64,000 nucleotides of DNA, taken from positions 124,001 through 188,000 of the forward strand of contig JAAXWG010000003.1 of NCBI GenBank assembly GCA_013350285.1. Reading direction: 5' to 3'. This document shows, one piece after another, positions 221-59,474 of the stretch. The notes beneath the pieces are model-generated. The model did not search any database. It saw only the letters and a list, made by a program, of their open reading frames with translations, and had not been told where the DNA came from. A program made the position numbers and the translations under genes. The DNA comes from Candidatus Altimarinota bacterium (lineage in GTDB: Bacteria > Patescibacteriota > Gracilibacteria > BD1-5 > UBA6164). The first letter of the stretch is position 1. The number at the start of each line of letters is the position of its first letter.

Positions 221-3200
221 ATGCAACAAAAAGAAATTTTTATAAATGAATATAATAGGCTCAATGAAAAGCAAAAAGAGGCAGTAGAGACTCTTGATGG
301 AGCTGTGATGGTTGTCGCTTGACCATGAACTGGAAAAACTCAAATTATAGGGATGAGGACAGCAAATATTATTCTCAAGGCTTGAGTCAATCCAGAAAAT
401 ATTCTTATTACGACTTTTACCGATGCTTGAGTGATTGCTATCAAAGAAAGGCTTGTAAAATTTATAGGTACTGAAGCTTATAAGGTCAATGTTTCTACTA
501 TTCATTCTTTTTCAGATGATGTTATCAAGACTTTTCCAGAAAAATTTGCTTATGAAAAGACAGAAAAAGCAATAGATGAAATAGACCAGCTTGAAATCAT
601 AAAAAATATATTGAAAATAATGATAGATGATGGAGAAATAGAAGAGCTTAGAGCCGTGGGAGATGATTATTTTTATCTTTTTGATATCAAATCAAGTATT
701 TCTCAATTGAAACAAGAATGAATACATATTTCAAAATTTGAGCTTCTTATAGATGAAGAAGAAAAAATACTTTTTGGACAGCTTGAAGAACTTCGTCTCA
801 ATAAAAGAATACGAGACCTTGAAAAAAGAATGGAAAAAGATAAAAAAGAATATGAAAAAAGAATAAAAAAATTGAGAGAACTTGCTTTACTATTTAAAAA
901 ATACAATGAGTATTTGAGAAATAAAGGCTTGTATGATTTTAATGATATGATAAATTTTGTGCTTGATAAGTTTAAGGAAGATGAGGATTTGAGATATTAT
1001 TATGCAGAAAAATTTCAATATATTATGTTGGATGAATATCAAGATACAAATAATGCTCAAAATGAAATCATTGCTCTTATTCTTCGCCCAGATGATTCTC
1101 CAGATTTTAAAAATCCAAATATTATGGTTGTTGGTGATGATGATCAGTCTATTTATCGTTTTCAATGAGCAAATATAGAAAATATGCTTGATTTTACTTA
1201 TCATTACAAAGAAGCAAAAATCATCGTCTTAGAAAATAATTATCGCTCTCATCAGTATATTTTGGATACGGCAAGTGAGCTTATAAAAAATAATAATGAA
1301 AGACTTATCAATAAAATAAATGCTTTAGAAAAAAAACTTATTGCCAAATCAAGCTTTGAAGATCCAGAAAGTCCAAAATTTTATAGTGCTTACAATGAAA
1401 TAGATGAGCAAAATTATGTATGTGAAAATATAAAAAATCTTCTCTCAAAAGGAATCAAAATAAATGAAATAGCTCTTATTGTGAGGCAAAATAAAGAAGT
1501 AGAAGTGTGGAGTGAATTTCTCAAATCGCAAGGAATAGAAGTAGAATCAAAACAAAAAACAAATATTTTAAATTCTGATATTATTCATCTTGCTCTTGAT
1601 TATCTTCTTTTGATAGCAAATCCCTATGCCGATGATAGAAAATTTATAGATTTACTTCTTTCTTCTTTTATTGATATTGAAAATATTGATGTGATAACTC
1701 TTACAAGATACTTAAATACCAAAAACTATGTGAGAAAAGATAAAATTGCTCTCTTTGATATCATAAAAAATGAATCACTTCTTCAAGAAATAGAATTAGG
1801 ATCAAGAGAAAAAATAAGAGTTTTTAATCAAAAACTCCTTGAATTTAAGTCATATTTATCACAAAAAACATTTATTGCATTTTTTGAATATTTTTTACAA
1901 GAATCTCAATTACTTGATTATCTTGATATGTATGGAACTTTTAATGATTTACAAGATGTTTTTACACTTTTTAATAAAATAAAAGATTTTTCAGCAAGTA
2001 ATCCATATCTTTCTTTGGAAACTTTTCTTCACAAGATGGATTTATACAAAACTTATAGATTTCCAATCTTGAGAGAAAATCTAAAAACTTCTCGTAGTTG
2101 AGTGCAAATTTTGACAGCTCATAGCTCAAAATGACTTGAATATGAAGCGGTTTTTATTCCATGACTTGTTTCTTGAAACTGGGATAATAAAAAGGCAATC
2201 ACAAAAATAAAACTTCCTTCTTGAATTGTTTGAGAAGGTTTACAAGAAGAAAAAGAAGAAAAGGATGAAAAAAGTAGGGAAGAAGAAAGAAGACTTTTTT
2301 TTGTAGCTTTGACAAGAGCAAAATCATATCTTTATTTTTCTGCTCCAAAAATCATAGGAAACAAAGCAAGACAAAGATCACTTTTTGTAGAAGAAATAAA
2401 AGAATATATTTCTGAAGAGCAGCAAAGAGAAGTGAGTGAAGAAACAATGAAAGAAGTCGTAAAAAATATTTTTTCTTGACCAAGACTTCATACTTTTAGT
2501 AAGCCAGAAATAGACTATATAGAAGAATTTTTGAAAAGCTACAAACTTTCGCCATCAGAACTTAATGTATTTTTGACAGATCCAAAAACTTTTCTTCATA
2601 ATATGGTATTCAAATATCCTTTTGCTCCCACAGAAGCAACAATATTTTGAAGTATTTATCATAGAGTACTTGAGCTTTTTTATGGAAAATATATTGAAAA
2701 ATGAAAATGGGAGGAAAAATCTTATCTTACCTCTACTTTTTCTCTCCTTTTAAAAAGGGAAATTTTGACTCCTGTAGAATTTGAAAGACTTGAAAAAAAA
2801 GGTCTTGAATGACTTTCAAATTATTATGAGACCTATAAAAATAATTTTTGAATTCCGCTTCAGCTTGAGTACAACTTCAAGCAAAGAAATATATTTTTTG
2901 GAGATATTCCACTGACTGGAAAAATAGATAAGATTGTGAAATTGAGTGATTTTGAACCAATTTTTTGACAAAAAGCTTCAATTTGTGTTGTGGATTATAA
3001 AACTGGAAGCATAAAATCCCTTGGGCAAATAAAGGGAACAGATAGGTATGGAAATAAAAAAGAAGAACCACAAGAATGACAATATTTTCGCCAACTTCTT
3101 TTTTACAAGCTTTTATGTGAGCTTGATACTTCTTTCAATGCTCATTATGAAGTTTCTGATTTGATGATTGATTTTGTTGAATGAAGAAATGGAGAATACA

Positions 3201-13473: not shown

Positions 13474-15669
13474 ATGAATTTAAATGAAAGACAACAAGAA
13501 GCAGTGAAGTGTATTGAATGACCTTTACTGATTATTGCCTGAGCAGGAAGCGGAAAGACGGCGACTTTGACAGCAAGAGTAGAAAATATGATAAAAAATC
13601 ATGGGATTTCTCCTCAAAATATCTTATGTGTAACCTTTACCAATAAGGCTGCTCGTGAGATGAAAGAAAGAATAGCAAAAAATCTATGAATAGATAGTAC
13701 TCAGATAAGAAGTTTTAAAGATTATAGACTTCCATTTATGGGAACATTTCATAGTTTTTGAGTTTCAGTTCTCAAAGAATATATAGAAATACTTGATTAT
13801 AAAAAAGATTTTATCATTTATGATACTGCTGATAGTGTTTCTCTTATAAAACAAATACTCAGAGAAATGAAATTTGAAGAAAAAGAATTTCCTCCAAGAA
13901 AAATTCAAACTTATATATCTACTGCAAAAAATAGTCTTTTAACTCCAAGTCAATATGAGCAATATGTGGATTCAAGTTTCAAAGAAGTTGTGAGAGATGT
14001 TTATCATAAATATCAAAAAAAACTTCAAGAAAATAATGCTCTTGATTTTGATGATATCTTGATAAAAACTCACAATATTTTGCAAAAACCTGAAATACTT
14101 GCGACTTATCAAGAAAGATATACATATATTATGGTAGATGAATATCAAGATACAAACATTACTCAGTATGAAATCATAAAAATGCTTGCAAGTAAGTATA
14201 GAAATTTAGCAGTAGTATGAGATGATTGGCAATCAATTTATAGCTGGAGGTGAGCAGATATGAGAAACATTTTGAATTTTAAAAAAGATTATCCTGAAGC
14301 TCTTGTAATCAAACTTGAACAAAATTATCGTTCTACCAAGCATATCATCAATGCAGCAAATGAAGTGATAAAAAATAATAAAAATGCTCTTTCTAAGACT
14401 CTTTGGACAGAGAATTGTGAGGGAGAATGTATTACTCTTATAGAAGCTCCAGATGATAGAAATGAAGCCAAAAAAATTGCAGAAATTATCGTAGAGCAGG
14501 GAAGACCATATAGTAAAAATCTTGTACTTTATCGTACAAATGGACAATCAAGACAAATAGAAGAATATTTGATAGGAGCTTGAATTCCTTATAAAGTAGT
14601 TGGCGGACTCAAATTTTATGATCGTATGGAGATAAAAGATTTACTTGCTTATTTAAAAATTCTCTATAATTCTCAAGATAGTATCAGTATGAAAAGAATT
14701 ATCAATGTGCCAGTAAGAAAAATAGGAGCAAGAAGTTTGGAGGTTCTTGATGAATATAAAAATAATTATGATTTAAGTTATTTACAAATTCTTGAAAATA
14801 TAGAAGATGTAGAAGATTTAAAATGAGCAGCAAAAATAAGCCTTGCAAATTTTTATACACTTTATAGAGAATTGAGAAAAAAACTTAATTCATTGCCATC
14901 ACTGAGAGAATTTGCTGAATATATGATACAAAAAATTTGATACAAAGATTATTTAAAATGAGAATATAGCGAAGCTGAGTATGATGCAAAAATAGAAAAT
15001 ATTGATGAACTTATTAATGTGCTAAGTGCATACGAGTGAATAGAGACAATTCCTGCTCTAGGGCAATTTATTGATGAAGTTTCTCTTCTCACTGATATGG
15101 ACCAACTGAGTGAAGAAAATGATTTTGTTACTTTGATGACAATTCATACTTCAAAATGACTTGAAAGAGAAAATGTATTTATTGCAGGAGTAGAAGATGG
15201 AATACTTCCTCACATAAGAACCATAGGGAATCAAGAAGAACTAGAAGAAGAAAGAAGATTGATGTATGTAGCGATGACAAGAGCAAAAGAAAAGCTTTAT
15301 ATTTCCAGAGCAAAAGAAAGGTTTCAATTTGGAGAATATATGAGAAATCCAAAATCAAGATTTATAGATGAAATACCACTTGTACATACACAAGAAATAT
15401 GATTTACAAGTGAAGTGAGTTTTTTTTGAGATTTAAATTTTTGATGAAATCTTTCTTCTTCTCCTTCTTCAGAAACTTTTCAAAAAGTTATAAAAACTCC
15501 AAAAATAGACAATGATATTGCCAGTTTTTCTATCTGAGATAGGCTCAGTCATCCAAAATTTTGAATTTGAATTATTACAGACCTCAATGGAGAATTAGCA
15601 GAAATAGCTTTTAATAATTGAGGATTAAAAAAGATGAATATTCGTATTGCTCCAGTGAAGAAGGTATAA
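13474..15669 (+). CDS. pcrA: ATP-dependent DNA helicase UvrD/PcrA
   Basis: A 731-residue superfamily 1A 3'-5' helicase for nucleotide excision repair, mismatch repair and replication restart. Walker A AGAGSGKT is at residues 22-29 with the first glycine encoded by TGA. Motif Ia [10 protein letters not shown], motif Ic MGTFHSF, motif [10 protein letters not shown], motif [19 protein letters not shown], motif IV EQNYRST, motif V TIHTSKGLE and motif [14 protein letters not shown] are all present. The C-terminus is a PcrA-type Tudor-like domain: [17 protein letters not shown] to the end, as used for RNA polymerase contact in other species. Length and order are normal. Confidence 0.95.
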
Positions 15670-54018: not shown

Positions 54019-54178
54019 CCATTTTTCTAGCAAAGAACTCGGGTTGGAATCCAAGTTAAGAAAATAGTGTTTAGAAAGTGTTGAAGTAAATATTTACTTC
54101 AAAACTTGGGTGGAACCGTCCTAAAAACCAATAAGGACCCCAAGACTTATTTTTATAAGTTTTTGAGGGTCTTTTTTA
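54019..54178 (+). promoter_or_regulatory. T-box riboswitch upstream of ridA-glyS
   Basis: The antiterminator is canonical: CTTGGG (54105-54110), the 7-base bulge TGGAACC (54111-54117), GTCCT (54118-54122), a loop, then AGGAC (54134-54138) and CCCAAG (54139-54144), an 11-bp stem with perfect complement. The competing terminator GACCC...ATAAG to GAGGGTC (54136-54171) plus TTTTTT uses the same bases. A stem GAAGTAAAT/ATTTACTTC (54083-54100) precedes it. The bulge TGGA would pair with a tRNA ending UCCA, i.e. discriminator U73, as in bacterial tRNA-Gly. The specifier arm is short: AACT-GG/CC-AGTT around a loop GTTGGAAT, in which GGA (54046-54048) is a possible Gly specifier. The specifier is not settled. 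Confidence 0.88.
54136..54178 (+). terminator. Rho-independent terminator of the T-box leader
   Basis: GACCCCAAGACTTAT pairs with ATAAGTTTTTGAGGGTC, followed by six T residues. It is the OFF structure of the leader and overlaps the 3' strand of the antiterminator (54134-54144). Confidence 0.88.
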
Positions 54179-54196
54179 AATTTTAATCTCTTCTTT

Positions 54197-54592
54197 ATGA
54201 AAAAACAACTTCATCCGAAAAATGCAGCTCAAAAAATGGCTTCATATTCTCCTTGAATTGAAATAGATCTTACAAAGGCAAAGAAAATGATTTTTGTGAC
54301 AGGACAAATAGCTCAGGATAATGAAGGAAAACCAATTGCTCCCGATGATATAGAAAAACAAACAGAGTGTGTTTTTGAATATATTTCAGCAATTCTCAAA
54401 GAATGAGATATGACTCTTGATGATGTCGTAAAAGCGGTTATTTATATAAAAAATATGAAAGATTTTGCAAAAATTTCTCCAATAAGAAATAAATACTTTG
54501 CAAATTCTAAGCCAGTTTCTACACTTATTGAGATTTCAAATACAGTAAAACAAGGCTGTGATATAGAAATAGATGTAATTGCTATGAAATAA
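54197..54592 (+). CDS. ridA: RidA-family enamine/imine deaminase
   Basis: A 131-residue YjgF/YER057c/UK114 protein. SYSPGIEIDLTKAKKMIFVT then GQIAQDNEGKP, CVFEYISAILKEGDMTLDDV and ISPIRNKYFANSKPVSTLIE fit the family, but the usual catalytic Arg-rich PARxxxxV motif is here PVSTLIEI, with Ser in place of Arg. The deaminase activity on 2-aminoacrylate is therefore uncertain. It is the first gene after the T-box, with glyS 97 bases downstream. Confidence 0.8.
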
Positions 54593-54689: not shown

Positions 54690-56273
54690 ATGGAAAAAGT
54701 AGAAATGAATGATATAGTAAATCTCGCTAAAAATAGGGGTTTTGTCTATGCTGGAAGTGAGATTTATGGGGGACTTGCAAATGCTTGGGATTATGGACCA
54801 TACGGAGCGATGATGAAAGAAAATATCAAAAATCTCTGGATAAAAGAATTTGTACAGAAAAAAGATGATATGGTGCTTCTTGATAGTGCGATTTTGATGA
54901 ATCCACAAATTTGGGTTGCAAGCGGACATGTTGGTGGTTTTAGTGATCCATTGATAGATGATAAAAATACAAAAGAAAGATTTAGAGCGGATAAACTTCT
55001 TGAAATTTTGATAGATGAAAAATTCCAGCATCATTATAATATTATTAAAAATTGAGCAAATCTTGAAATTGAAAATTTTCCAGATCTTGAGGAAAACATT
55101 TGGAATAAATTAACCCATATTAGTCCAAATATAAAATCTTATAATAAATGAAGTATTCCTTCAAATAATATTATTGGTGTTGTAATGGATTTTGTTTTAC
55201 TTGAAATATATAATAAATATTGAATTGAAAATTTAATTCCTGAGTCTTGGCCTTTAGAACTACAATCTAAGGTTATGATTTGAGAAAAAGTAAAAAATCC
55301 AAATACTTGAAATCCTTGAGATTGGACTGAAGCAAAAAAATTTAATCTTATGTTTAGAACTTCTCAAGGTGTCACAGAAGATAGCTCTGCAACTATTTAT
55401 CTTCGTCCTGAAACGGCTCAGGGAATATTTGTAAACTTTGCAAATATTGCGAGAACAAGCAGAAAAAAAATTCCTTTTGGTGTGGCTCAGGTTGGAAAAG
55501 CTTTTAGAAATGAAATTACTCCAGGAAATTTTATCTTCCGTACGAGAGAATTTGAACAGATGGAAATAGAATATTTTTGTGAACCGTGAAAAGATTTGGA
55601 AGAACATGCAAAATGGAAGCAAGATTGTATGAATTTTTTGACTCAAAAAATCGGTTTAAAAGAAGATTCTCTCAAGTTTAGAGATCACGATAAAGATGAA
55701 CTTTCTCATTATAGCAATGCAACGACTGATATAGAATTCAAATTTCCTTTTGGTTGGGGAGAACTTTGGGGAATTGCCGACAGAACTGATTTTGACCTAA
55801 AAGCTCATATGAGAGAAAGTAAACAAGATATGAGTTATTTTGATTCAGTAAACAATAAAAAATATATTCCTTATGTGATAGAGCCATCAGTTTGATTAAC
55901 AAGACTTTTCTTGACAACGATGATTGATGCATATACAACAGACGGAGAAGGAGAAGAAGCAAGAACTTATCTCAAACTTGATCCAAAAATCGCTCCAGTA
56001 AAAGTATGAGTTTTACCGGTGGTGAAAAAAATATCAGATATTGCAAAACCTATTTTTCAACAACTCAGTGAAGATTTTGTCTGTGAATATGATGATGTTG
56101 GAAGTATAGGGAAGAGATATGCAAGATTTGATGAGATTGGAACTCCTTTTTGTGTGACAATAGATAGTGAAAATTATGATAATGGAAAAGTAACTATAAG
56201 ATATAGGGATAGTATGAAGCAAGAACTTGTAGAAATCAGTAAACTCAATGAATTTATCAGAAAATTTTTGTAG
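54690..56273 (+). CDS. glyS: Glycyl-tRNA synthetase (single-chain, class II)
   Basis: A 527-residue enzyme that charges tRNA-Gly, including, in this genetic code, the suppressor-like tRNA-Gly that reads UGA. It is the eukaryote/archaea-like alpha2 form, not the bacterial alpha-beta. [20 protein letters not shown] and [14 protein letters not shown] open the catalytic domain; [34 protein letters not shown] (motif 2 region), [15 protein letters not shown] and VIEPSVGLTRLFL (motif 3) follow. The C-terminal anticodon-binding domain starts near residue 430. The zinc-binding Cys region of some relatives is absent. At least 12 glycines are TGA, so the synthetase depends on its own product. Confidence 0.95.
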
Positions 56274-56301: not shown

Positions 56302-57075
56302 ATGATAATACAATTTATATGATGTGGAAATATGGGGGAAATAATTTTAAACAAAGTTATTTCTCAGGGAATGAGTGTTAAAAATATTTATGTAAAGACA
56401 AAAACTCAAGAAAGTGAGGAAAAGATAACTCATACTTATTGAGTAAATATTTGATTAAATAGTGATGCAGATATAGTTTTTTTGGCGATAAAACCACAAC
56501 AATTTTTAGAAATGAATGATTTTATTTTTCCTAAAAACTCTTTAATAATTTCTATAATGGCTTGAGTTACGATAGATAATATAAATAAAAAATGGAGTAA
56601 TAAAAATATTATCAGATGTATGCCAAATACAGCTATTTCAAATTGAAATTGAGTTGTGTGATATTTTTTTAGCAGTAATATTGAAGAAAAAAAAATGAAG
56701 TTTTTCATAAATATTTTTTCAAAATTTTGATATATTTTAAAATTAGATAATGAGGATAAAATTAATAAAATTACAGCTTTGTCTTGATCAGGACCTGCTT
56801 ATTTTTATTTTTTAACCCAATTATTAAAACAAAAAGCTTTGAAATTTTGATTTAGTGAAATAGAAGCAGTTTCTATCGCAAATAACACATTTATATGATC
56901 TGCAAAATTATTAGAAAATAGTTCTTTATCTGTGGAAGATTTGAGAAAACAAATTACTTCAAAATGATGAACAACACAAAAAGCTATAGAAAGCTTTGAA
57001 AATAATTGATTTATTGATAATTTTTTTGATTGAATAGAAAAGGCTTATGATAGAGCCAAAGATTTAAATTGATAA
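56302..57075 (+). CDS. proC: Pyrroline-5-carboxylate reductase
   Basis: Last step of proline synthesis, reducing pyrroline-5-carboxylate with NAD(P)H. The 257-residue protein has the Rossmann loop FIGCGNMGEIIL, ADIVFLAIKPQQF, MPNTAIS, and the signature segment ALSGSGPAYFYFLTQLL; LRKQITSKGGTTQKAIESFE is the conserved C-terminal block (normally TSPGGTT, here TSKGGTT). It ends AAT-TGA-TAA, giving a terminal glycine. It starts 28 bases after glyS and is followed by proA. Confidence 0.93.
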
Positions 57076-57086
57076 TTTTTGAAAAT

Positions 57087-58349
57087 ATGGAAAATATATT
57101 ACAGGATTTACAAAAGACAAAAATCTCATCAGAAAAATTTAAAAATACTAGTTTTGAAATGAGAAATAAATTGATAAAGGAAATATGAGATAATATAAAG
57201 AAAAATAAAGATTTAATAATCGCGGAAAATAAAAAGGATTTAAAAAAAATGACTGAAGATAATCCTATGAGAGATAGACTCTTACTTGATGAAAAAAGAA
57301 TAAATTCTATGTCGGAAGCTTGTTATGATTTAGTAGATATAGAAGATCCATTATTGAAATACAAAGATGAAAAAATTATAGAAACAAAAGATGGTTTAAA
57401 GATAAAAAAAATAGGAGTTCCTATTTGAGTTGTTGCTTGTATTTATGAAGCAAGGCCAAATGTTACTATTGATATAGTAATTATGGCAATAAAGTCTTGA
57501 AATTGAACCGTTTTAAGATGAGGAAATCAAGCTCTATTTTCCAATAAGATTTTGGTAAAAATAATAGACGATGTCTTAGAAAAAAATAATTTTGATAAAA
57601 GTCTTATTTATAATTTCCCATTAGAAAGAGAAAAATTAAATATTTTATACACATCTGTATGATTGGTAGATGTTATAATTCCGAGATGATGAAAAGATTT
57701 AATTGATAGTGTGAGAAAAAAATCATTGATTCCAGTAATTGAAACTTGAGCTTGAGTGGTCCATCTTTATCTCGATCAATATATTGAAAATACTATTGAT
57801 AAGGCGATACCGCTTATCATAAATGCAAAAGTTTCTCGTCCTTCTGTTTGTAATTCACTTGATACTCTTTTAATAAATGAAAATATAAAACAAGAATATT
57901 TAGAAAAATTATTTTATGAATTTAAAAAAAATAATGTTCATATTTTGGCAATAGAAAAAGATATTTGTATTTTATCAAAATATTTTGAAGAGGATAATTT
58001 GCATAAAATAAAAGAAGTTGAATTTTTTACCGAACAATTATCATTAAAACTCAACATAAAATTTGTAGAATCTATTGAAGAAGGTATAAAACACATACAA
58101 AAATATTCTTCAAAGCATTCTGATTGAATACTCAGTGAAAATAAAGAGAACATAGATATATTTCAAAAAAATATTGACTCTTCTGTTATTCATATAAATA
58201 CTTCTCCTAGATTTTCTGATTGATCTTGTTTCTGATTCTGATGAGAGATAGGAATTTCAACTCAAAAGTTGCATGCTCGATGACCTATGTGAGCAGAAAG
58301 TTTGGTTACTTATAAATATATTGTTTGTTCTGATTGGAAAATGAGATAA
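57087..58349 (+). CDS. proA: Gamma-glutamyl phosphate reductase
   Basis: Reduces gamma-glutamyl phosphate to glutamate semialdehyde with NADPH. The 420-residue aldehyde-dehydrogenase-fold enzyme has GVPIGVVACIYEARPNVTID, AIKSGNGTVLRGGNQA, VIIPRGGKDLIDSVRK, VIETGAGVVHLYLDQY and the catalytic Cys in AKVSRPSVCNSLDTLL. The C-terminal [20 protein letters not shown] is the family signature. Eleven bases separate it from proC. Confidence 0.95.
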
Positions 58350-58379
58350 TTTTTATCTTCTTAAACTATAGAAAAACTT

Positions 58380-59474
58380 ATGAAAAAAGAAATATATGTT
58401 CTAAAATTATGATCAAATATTCTTTTGGGTGGATGAGGAATAGACCAAGAAGTATTGCACCATATTTCAAACACCATCTTTAATTTAAAGAAGAAGGGGA
58501 TTGATACAGTAGTTATAAGTTCTTGAGCTGTTGCTTTGGGAAGAAATTATTTTTGAACAGATTTTATAAGTTGACTTACGGAAACAGAAACTTTACAGGT
58601 TTTTGCAAGTGTATGACAACCACTTTTAATGGAGGAATATAAAAAATATCTTTCGGAATATAATATAAAAATTTCCCAATTACTTCTGACAAGACGAGAT
58701 TTTTCAATCATGGAAAATTATAATTCTATAAAAAAAGTAATTTTTGGTTTATTGGCCTTAGGTATTATTCCTATAATAAATGAAAATGATGTTATTACAC
58801 CAGAAGAGCTTGATTTTTCTGACAATGATCAGTTAGCGGTTTTGGTTTCTTGAATGCTTTGAGCAAATAAAATGATTGTTCTTTCAAATGTTCATTGATT
58901 GTATAATAAACACCCAGATGATTGATGAGTTTTGCTAAAATATGTCAATACAATAAATGAAAATATTATGAGCATGGTAAGTAATAAACAATCAACTTAT
59001 TGAAAATGAGGGATGTTGAGTAAGGTAAAAACAGCAAAAATAGCTATGGATTTATGAATTGATATGTATATAGTAAATTGAAAACTTCCATGATTAGTAG
59101 AAAAAATAGTTCTTTGAAAAAATCCTTGAACAATTTTTAAAGCAAAACTAAAACCAAAAATAGATTCTATTAGAAAATGGTTAAAAGCTTGAGCTGTTCC
59201 TGTTTGAAAGATTCAAGTTTCAACTATTATTTGAGATTTATTAAAAGATAAAAAAAGAATATCAATATTATCTATATGAATTGTAAAGATTATAAATAAT
59301 TTCTCAGAAAAGGATGTGATTGAAGTAATAAATGAAAAATGAGAATGTTTGTGACTTGGTATAGCTAAAATAAACTCGTCAGAATTTTCTGAAGCAAAAG
59401 ATAGTTTAGAAAGTAAGATAGTAATCCATACCGATTATTTTATATATTTAAGTGATTTTGATAAAAGCTTTTAA
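58380..59474 (+). CDS. proB: Glutamate 5-kinase
   Basis: Phosphorylates glutamate to start proline synthesis. The 364-residue amino-acid-kinase-fold protein has VLKLGSNILLGGGGID, VVISSGAVALGRN, SVGQPLLMEEYKKYL, QLLLTRRDF, PIINENDVITPEELDFSDND and the C-terminal PUA-like domain (about residues 285-364). Proline feedback inhibition acts on this enzyme in relatives. With proC and proA it completes the route from glutamate; the gene order is proC-proA-proB. Confidence 0.94.

Follow-up and report, generated by a model that had tools for sequence, protein, structure and literature searches.

The T-boxes closest to the leader described here belong to two described types. Class I T-boxes of the glyQS type, known from Bacillus subtilis and represented by RF00230, have a long stem I that carries the specifier in an internal loop and contacts the tRNA elbow through an interdigitated double T-loop. 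Their further parts are a stem III purine motif, an antiterminator with the bulge UGGNACC between the helices A1 and A2, a G-U pair at the base of A2 and a terminator; a glycine specifier and a synthetase gene downstream belong to the type as well. The B. subtilis glyQS T-box also does without stem II. In the ultrashort-stem-I ileS T-boxes of Actinobacteria (class II) stem I ends above the specifier, which is placed in the apical loop, and the elbow module is missing (PMC10651847, PMC7583486). These T-boxes are translational, act on ribosome binding and depend on stem II, including its S-turn, and on the IIA/B pseudoknot (PMC10651847). For known T-boxes it has been stated that stem I is obligate, that transcriptional T-boxes require a long stem I, that stem II is essential where stem I is short and that the amino acid, as the 3'-aminoacyl group, is sensed chiefly by the G-U pair at the foot of A2 (PMC7583486).

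In the window, by which we mean the whole analysed stretch of 64,000 nucleotides from a genome of 1.28 Mb, ridA and glyS are preceded by a leader that we read as a strongly reduced T-box with its specifier in a terminal loop. It is predicted to attenuate transcription, to sense uncharged tRNA-Gly-UCC and to control ridA-glyS, and we put the probability of this reading at roughly 0.87. Its elements and the downstream genes are collected in Table 1.

Table 1. Elements of the predicted glyS leader and genes following it (positions in the window)
Feature	Position	Strand	Basis or remark
Predicted T-box leader, transcriptional	54021-54177	+	ahead of ridA-glyS
Stem I lower helix UUUUCU/AGAAAA	54023-54028 with 54059-54064	+	sequence, fold (weak alone), promoters of relatives
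Specifier helix AACUCGG/CCAAGUU	54036-54042 with 54051-54057	+	covariation, 69 leaders
Terminal loop GUUGGAAU, 8 nt	54043-54050	+	caps specifier helix
Specifier GGA	54046-54048	+	predicted to pair with anticodon UCC of tRNA-Gly; loop flanks, tRNA repertoire
RRRxG-stem III-AA motif (AAGUG, stem III, AA)	54076-54104	+	fold, covariation of stem III
Antiterminator (A1, bulge, A2)	54105-54144	+	Rfam alignment, fold, covariation
Helix A1 CUUGGG/CCCAAG	54105-54110 with 54139-54144	+	6 bp
Bulge UGGAACC	54111-54117	+	exact T-box bulge, between A1 and A2
Helix A2 GUCCU/AGGAC	54118-54122 with 54134-54138	+	5 bp
Intrinsic terminator, competing	54135-54177	+	fold; position kept in relatives
ridA, Rid family enamine/imine deaminase	54197-54592	+	NCBIfam TIGR00004
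glyS, glycine--tRNA ligase	54690-56273	+	NCBIfam NF003211
proC, proA, proB	56302-59474	+	NCBIfam matches over cut-off; closely spaced after glyS

With the glyQS type the leader shares the bulge, helices A1 and A2, the purine motif of stem III, the terminator, the glycine specifier, the synthetase gene downstream and the lack of stem II. It differs in that the long stem I and the double T-loop are missing, the specifier sits in a terminal instead of an internal loop, the base of A2 is G-C (G54118-C54138) and not G-U, and the match to RF00230 (53990-54145; E 0.0014 when the window is searched with all Rfam families, 6.7e-6 for the genome) reaches 33.0 bits, short of the gathering score of 93 bits. 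The sequence-only reading had proposed a T-box with an 11-bp antiterminator stem, an exact TGGAACC bulge and a competing terminator. Its identification is borne out by the RF00230 match, the exact elements and covariation, and the stem is indeed built from the 6 and 5 bp of A1 and A2. The terminator takes up the 3' strands of both helices and is thus exclusive of the antiterminator. Its hairpin (54135-54172, followed by a U run) folds with -17 kcal/mol and z -4.3, none of 200 shuffles being as good, and the element ends about 20 nt upstream of ridA. Sequestration of the ribosome binding site was not found in the window leader; hairpin and U run form an intrinsic terminator instead.

Stem I (54023-54064) has a purine-rich internal loop above its lower helix, and the latter adjoins the RNA start as judged from promoters of relatives. 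Folding of the window sequence alone gives no support for the specifier hairpin (z -0.1), in which there is one C-A mismatch; the hairpin is backed by covariation, since all 7 pairs show changes on both sides among 69 leaders. The region of the RRRxG-stem III-AA motif, which is as described in PMC7583486, folds with z -5.5 (strands of stem III: 54081-54089 and 54094-54102). At the base of A2 the 69 leaders have G-C in 55 and G-U in 14 cases. We treat G-C as variation and see in it no ground for exclusion from the T-boxes because it concerns one residue of an otherwise complete discriminator.

Stem I had been called unusually short, and this is correct: no structure is found beyond the specifier loop, so that a module for binding the tRNA elbow is lacking. 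Stem III follows stem I in the window after no more than about 10-15 nt, which is too little room for stem II or IIA/B. The kink-turn motif (UGAUGA...GGAG) is absent from the window leader and recognisable in only about five leaders of the order. In the end of stem I above the specifier, the apical-loop specifier and the lack of an elbow module the leader resembles the ultrashort ileS T-boxes of class II. Unlike these it has neither stem II with an S-turn nor the IIA/B pseudoknot, and it ends in an intrinsic terminator whereas they act on the ribosome. New about this T-box is its architecture: it is transcriptional and lacks the elbow module, stem II and IIA/B.

The long-stem-I thrS T-boxes of the same bacterial class (family f34 and others) share with the window leader the discriminator with UGGAACC for a U73 tRNA but have a predicted long stem I with distal loop, ACC in an internal loop and a -10 box or RNA start at a distance of about 150 nt upstream of the bulge. 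No convincing promoter of the window leader was found within the window. Where a promoter could be recognised in relatives, the distance from the end of the -10 box to the bulge is mostly about 82-110 nt, and the RNA start of most of these leaders is therefore too near to the bulge for a long stem I. As predicted from promoter consensus, stem I is apparently absent in two genera (G015 and G029). The glyS leader of G029 (L108) has the promoter TTGACA-17-TATACT with the end of the -10 box 38 nt before the bulge, and that of G015 (L095), with the bulge UGGGACC, has TTGACT-16-TATACT ending 45 nt before it; terminator and antiterminator are retained in both.

RF00230 matched 12 of 77 genomes of the order, and the score of 93 bits was reached in none of the 77. 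A covariance model built from these twelve leaders (R1) matched 68 of the 77 genomes, covering all 34 genera; the 12 founder genomes match by construction, which does not apply to the other 56. This comparison of leaders in related genomes, suggested by the sequence-only reading, places the leader nearly always upstream of glyS, in some genomes with at least one gene in between (ridA here and also in G033 and G032). Second R1 matches in five genomes (G045, G021, G061, G063, G042) are weak and look like chance, and they were rejected. All helices covary across the alignment of 69 leaders: both partners have changed in 21 of 23 pairs, paired cells amount to 91.5% compared with 66% in shuffles and at most 56% when slid, and none of 500 shuffles scored as high, with the absolute values biased upwards by an alignment fitted to R1. 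Of 72 leaders 67 have a terminator where it is expected, versus 3 of 210 control positions, and the RRRxG-stem III-AA motif was recovered by a rough scan in 39 of 71.

GGA at 54046-54048 had been named as one candidate specifier. Its place in an 8-nt hairpin loop, its flanks of U and purine and a third base that tracks the tRNA-Gly repertoire of the genomes speak for it. The base before the specifier is U in all 64 parsed leaders of the order and the base after it A in 62 and G in 2, as would be expected for pairs with A37 and U33 of the tRNA. Every one of the 70 genomes read has CUUCCAA as the anticodon loop of tRNA-Gly-UCC, and 69 of them have U73 in this tRNA, the remaining gene being cut at a contig end. 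The loop is invariant, so position 38 offers no variation to compare with the leader base; where tRNA-Gly-GCC was read, its position 38 fits the base before the loop U in a single genome but fails to do so in two, and pairing at position 38 is not claimed. Specifier registers UUG, UGG and GAA were rejected since the matching tRNAs of the genome carry A73 or G73, unfit for the bulge base A.

The third specifier base is mostly A. GGC occurs in 9 of 10 genomes with tRNA-Gly-GCC versus 1 of 55 without it (Fisher 3e-9; the specifiers of G024 and G018 were read by eye). Because kinship inflates this value, independent pairs on the glyS tree were used: among six pairs the specifier changed in the same direction in 4 to 6 and in the opposite direction in none (median p 0.031, quick tree). 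One genome (G004) has tRNA-Gly-GCC, yet its specifier was read as GGA. Six GGU, four GGG and one GGC leaders mismatch at the third base with the sole GGN-reading tRNA-Gly found, and these minority leaders need wobble or superwobble pairing. In the window's genome tRNA-Gly-GCC was searched for and not found, and GGC is nearly absent among the glycine codons of the window's 48 large ORFs (12 codons).

The prediction that a U73 tRNA is sensed is supported, the bulge A fitting U73 of tRNA-Gly. In the window's genome U73 is carried by tRNA-Gly-UCC, tRNA-Gly-UCA, two tRNA-Thr and tRNA-Cys, therefore the bulge alone is no proof of glycine, and it is the specifier that supplies it: among the tRNAs found in the genome only tRNA-Gly-UCC satisfies GGA and U73 together. 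That the leader senses tRNA-Thr or tRNA-Cys and stands before glyS by accident could draw on their U73 and on thrS T-boxes with identical bulge in class and phylum. The glyS leaders of the order, however, have GGN in the loop with conserved flanks where thrS leaders have ACC, and their third base tracks tRNA-Gly-GCC, so this explanation can hardly be right. It is improbable as well, if less so, that the leader is derived from a T-box but has become independent of tRNA identity and charging, with the discriminator kept and the short hairpin only delaying the polymerase or setting basal termination. Such a state would agree with the lack of elbow module, stem II and IIA/B, with the apparent lack of any stem I in two genera and with G-C replacing G-U in A2, but not with a loop sequence and specifier that are conserved while the stems change, nor with a third specifier base that follows the tRNA set.

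The remaining alternative concerns the genetic code, as UGA is a glycine codon in this organism. glyS alone has 9 in-frame UGA, and UGA outnumbers every other glycine codon in the window's 48 large ORFs (537 of 1061, 51%). The sequence-only reading had suggested that the leader may integrate the charging states of both kinds of tRNA-Gly, tRNA-Gly-UCA among them, and would in this way be adapted to the changed code. Glycyl-tRNA synthetase charges both tRNA-Gly-UCC and tRNA-Gly-UCA, and in the window's genome both end with U73CCA. The integration of both classes is contradicted at the specifier: GGA fits tRNA-Gly-UCC but mismatches anticodon UCA (A36 of the tRNA against G), and the anticodon loop CUUCAAC of tRNA-Gly-UCA would require a UGA specifier, which occurs neither in the specifier loop of the window leader nor among the homologous leaders. 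By pattern, which could miss divergent versions elsewhere, tRNA-Gly-UCA was detected in 61 genomes, all of this order. The same type of leader precedes glyS in three further members of the class (G136, G143, G145) that have no in-frame UGA in glyS and in which a UGA-reading tRNA was not found by pattern; the T-box is therefore no product of the code change. A link with recoding is thus very improbable, and a weak contact of tRNA-Gly-UCA with the bulge alone is conceivable. The T-box is not tied to recoding and is predicted to read the GGN-reading tRNA-Gly.

For a leader that senses tRNA-Gly-UCC the following course may be proposed. During its transcription the hairpin loop GUUGGAAU would capture tRNA-Gly-UCC by five to six contiguous pairs of UUGGAA with UUCCAA of the anticodon loop (tRNA positions 33-38). 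If the tRNA is uncharged, its U73-C-C-A would pair with UGGA of the bulge and hold the antiterminator, and RNA polymerase would read into ridA-glyS and probably also into proC-proA-proB; with charged tRNA-Gly-UCC the terminator would form. The longer loop-loop pairing presumably stands in for the missing elbow contact and stem II. In this scheme the elements of the leader, their conservation and covariation, the terminator, the downstream genes and the fit to the tRNA repertoire are shown, whereas binding of the tRNA, response to its charging and the part played by the pairs flanking the specifier are inferred.

That ridA-glyS lie downstream, as read earlier from the letters, was confirmed by NCBIfam for both genes. 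RidA gave E 1e-24 and 87 bits to TIGR00004, below the curated cut-off of 106 bits, and GlyS (527 aa, 9 in-frame UGA) 634 bits to NF003211 with a cut-off of 312. Most relatives have a GlyS of about 470 aa, and the extra residues of the window protein are found around positions 115-205. The genes proC, proA and proB are lined up behind glyS, the spacing being about 30 nt where there is no overlap; they are probably co-transcribed with glyS, and proline synthesis may in this way sit under a glycine T-box. Elsewhere in the window (2252-2349 and 15221-15315) there are sub-threshold Rfam matches to n00280, an sRNA from within a C. difficile helicase gene; they probably reflect protein-coding similarity of helicase genes.

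In a sample of the phylum R1 matched 62 of 380 genomes. Among the loci read (L319-L347) the gene downstream is in most cases glyS or thrS, and the specifier is often placed in a terminal loop, e.g. UACCA for Thr. One locus stands before ileS; its loop CUAUCAA and its bulge UGGUACC fit Ile and A73. Specifier and bulge thus shift with the gene, from ACC in thrS leaders to AUC with UGGUACC for A73 in the ileS leader. In other families of the class (L120-L123, L125-L128, L130-L134) thrS T-boxes have a predicted long stem I and, in those folded, the specifier ACC. Among Firmicutes glyS relatives, considered as a source, RF00230 matched 1 of 17 loci examined, and there with a long stem I. The window's genome has a second T-box outside the window (G000:C4:45839-45935, minus strand; L118, L348), which RF00230 missed. 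It shows the hairpin GUCUG[CUAUCAA]CAGAC (AUC), the bulge UGGUACC for A73 and a strong terminator; its first gene encodes a CAP-domain secreted protein, with ileS about 5.4 kb downstream in the same-strand gene run. We read it as a putative Ile T-box heading a run that includes ileS.

A wider generalisation is tentative, with chances slightly below even: Patescibacteria would possess a distinct miniature class of transcriptional T-boxes in which the tRNA is chosen by a loop-loop contact of 5-6 bp (the codon and its A37/U33 neighbours) together with N73-CCA, while stem II and any contact with the elbow are missing. Two genera at least (G015 and G029) would have lost stem I altogether, leaving on glyS a discriminator-only leader with specificity left to the bulge and the tRNA pool. 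A literature search that covered few of the subscription journals gave no paper on T-boxes in Gracilibacteria, Patescibacteria or the Candidate Phyla Radiation, and we do not claim priority for T-boxes in Patescibacteria.

The findings extend T-boxes to Patescibacteria. The glyS leader family appears to break two rules at once, namely that of the long stem I in transcriptional T-boxes and that of stem II where stem I is short, and G015 and G029 appear to break also the rule of an obligate stem I. With such leaders nature supplies small constructs on which the minimal requirements of a T-box can be studied. Since the third base follows loss or retention of tRNA-Gly-GCC, they represent also a natural experiment on specifier evolution. 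Concerning recoding the answer is negative but informative: about half of the glycine codons are UGA, and the synthetase is predicted to be under the other tRNA-Gly. For the organism this means that the switch most likely turns on the enzyme that loads glycine onto tRNA when the ordinary glycine tRNA accumulates uncharged.
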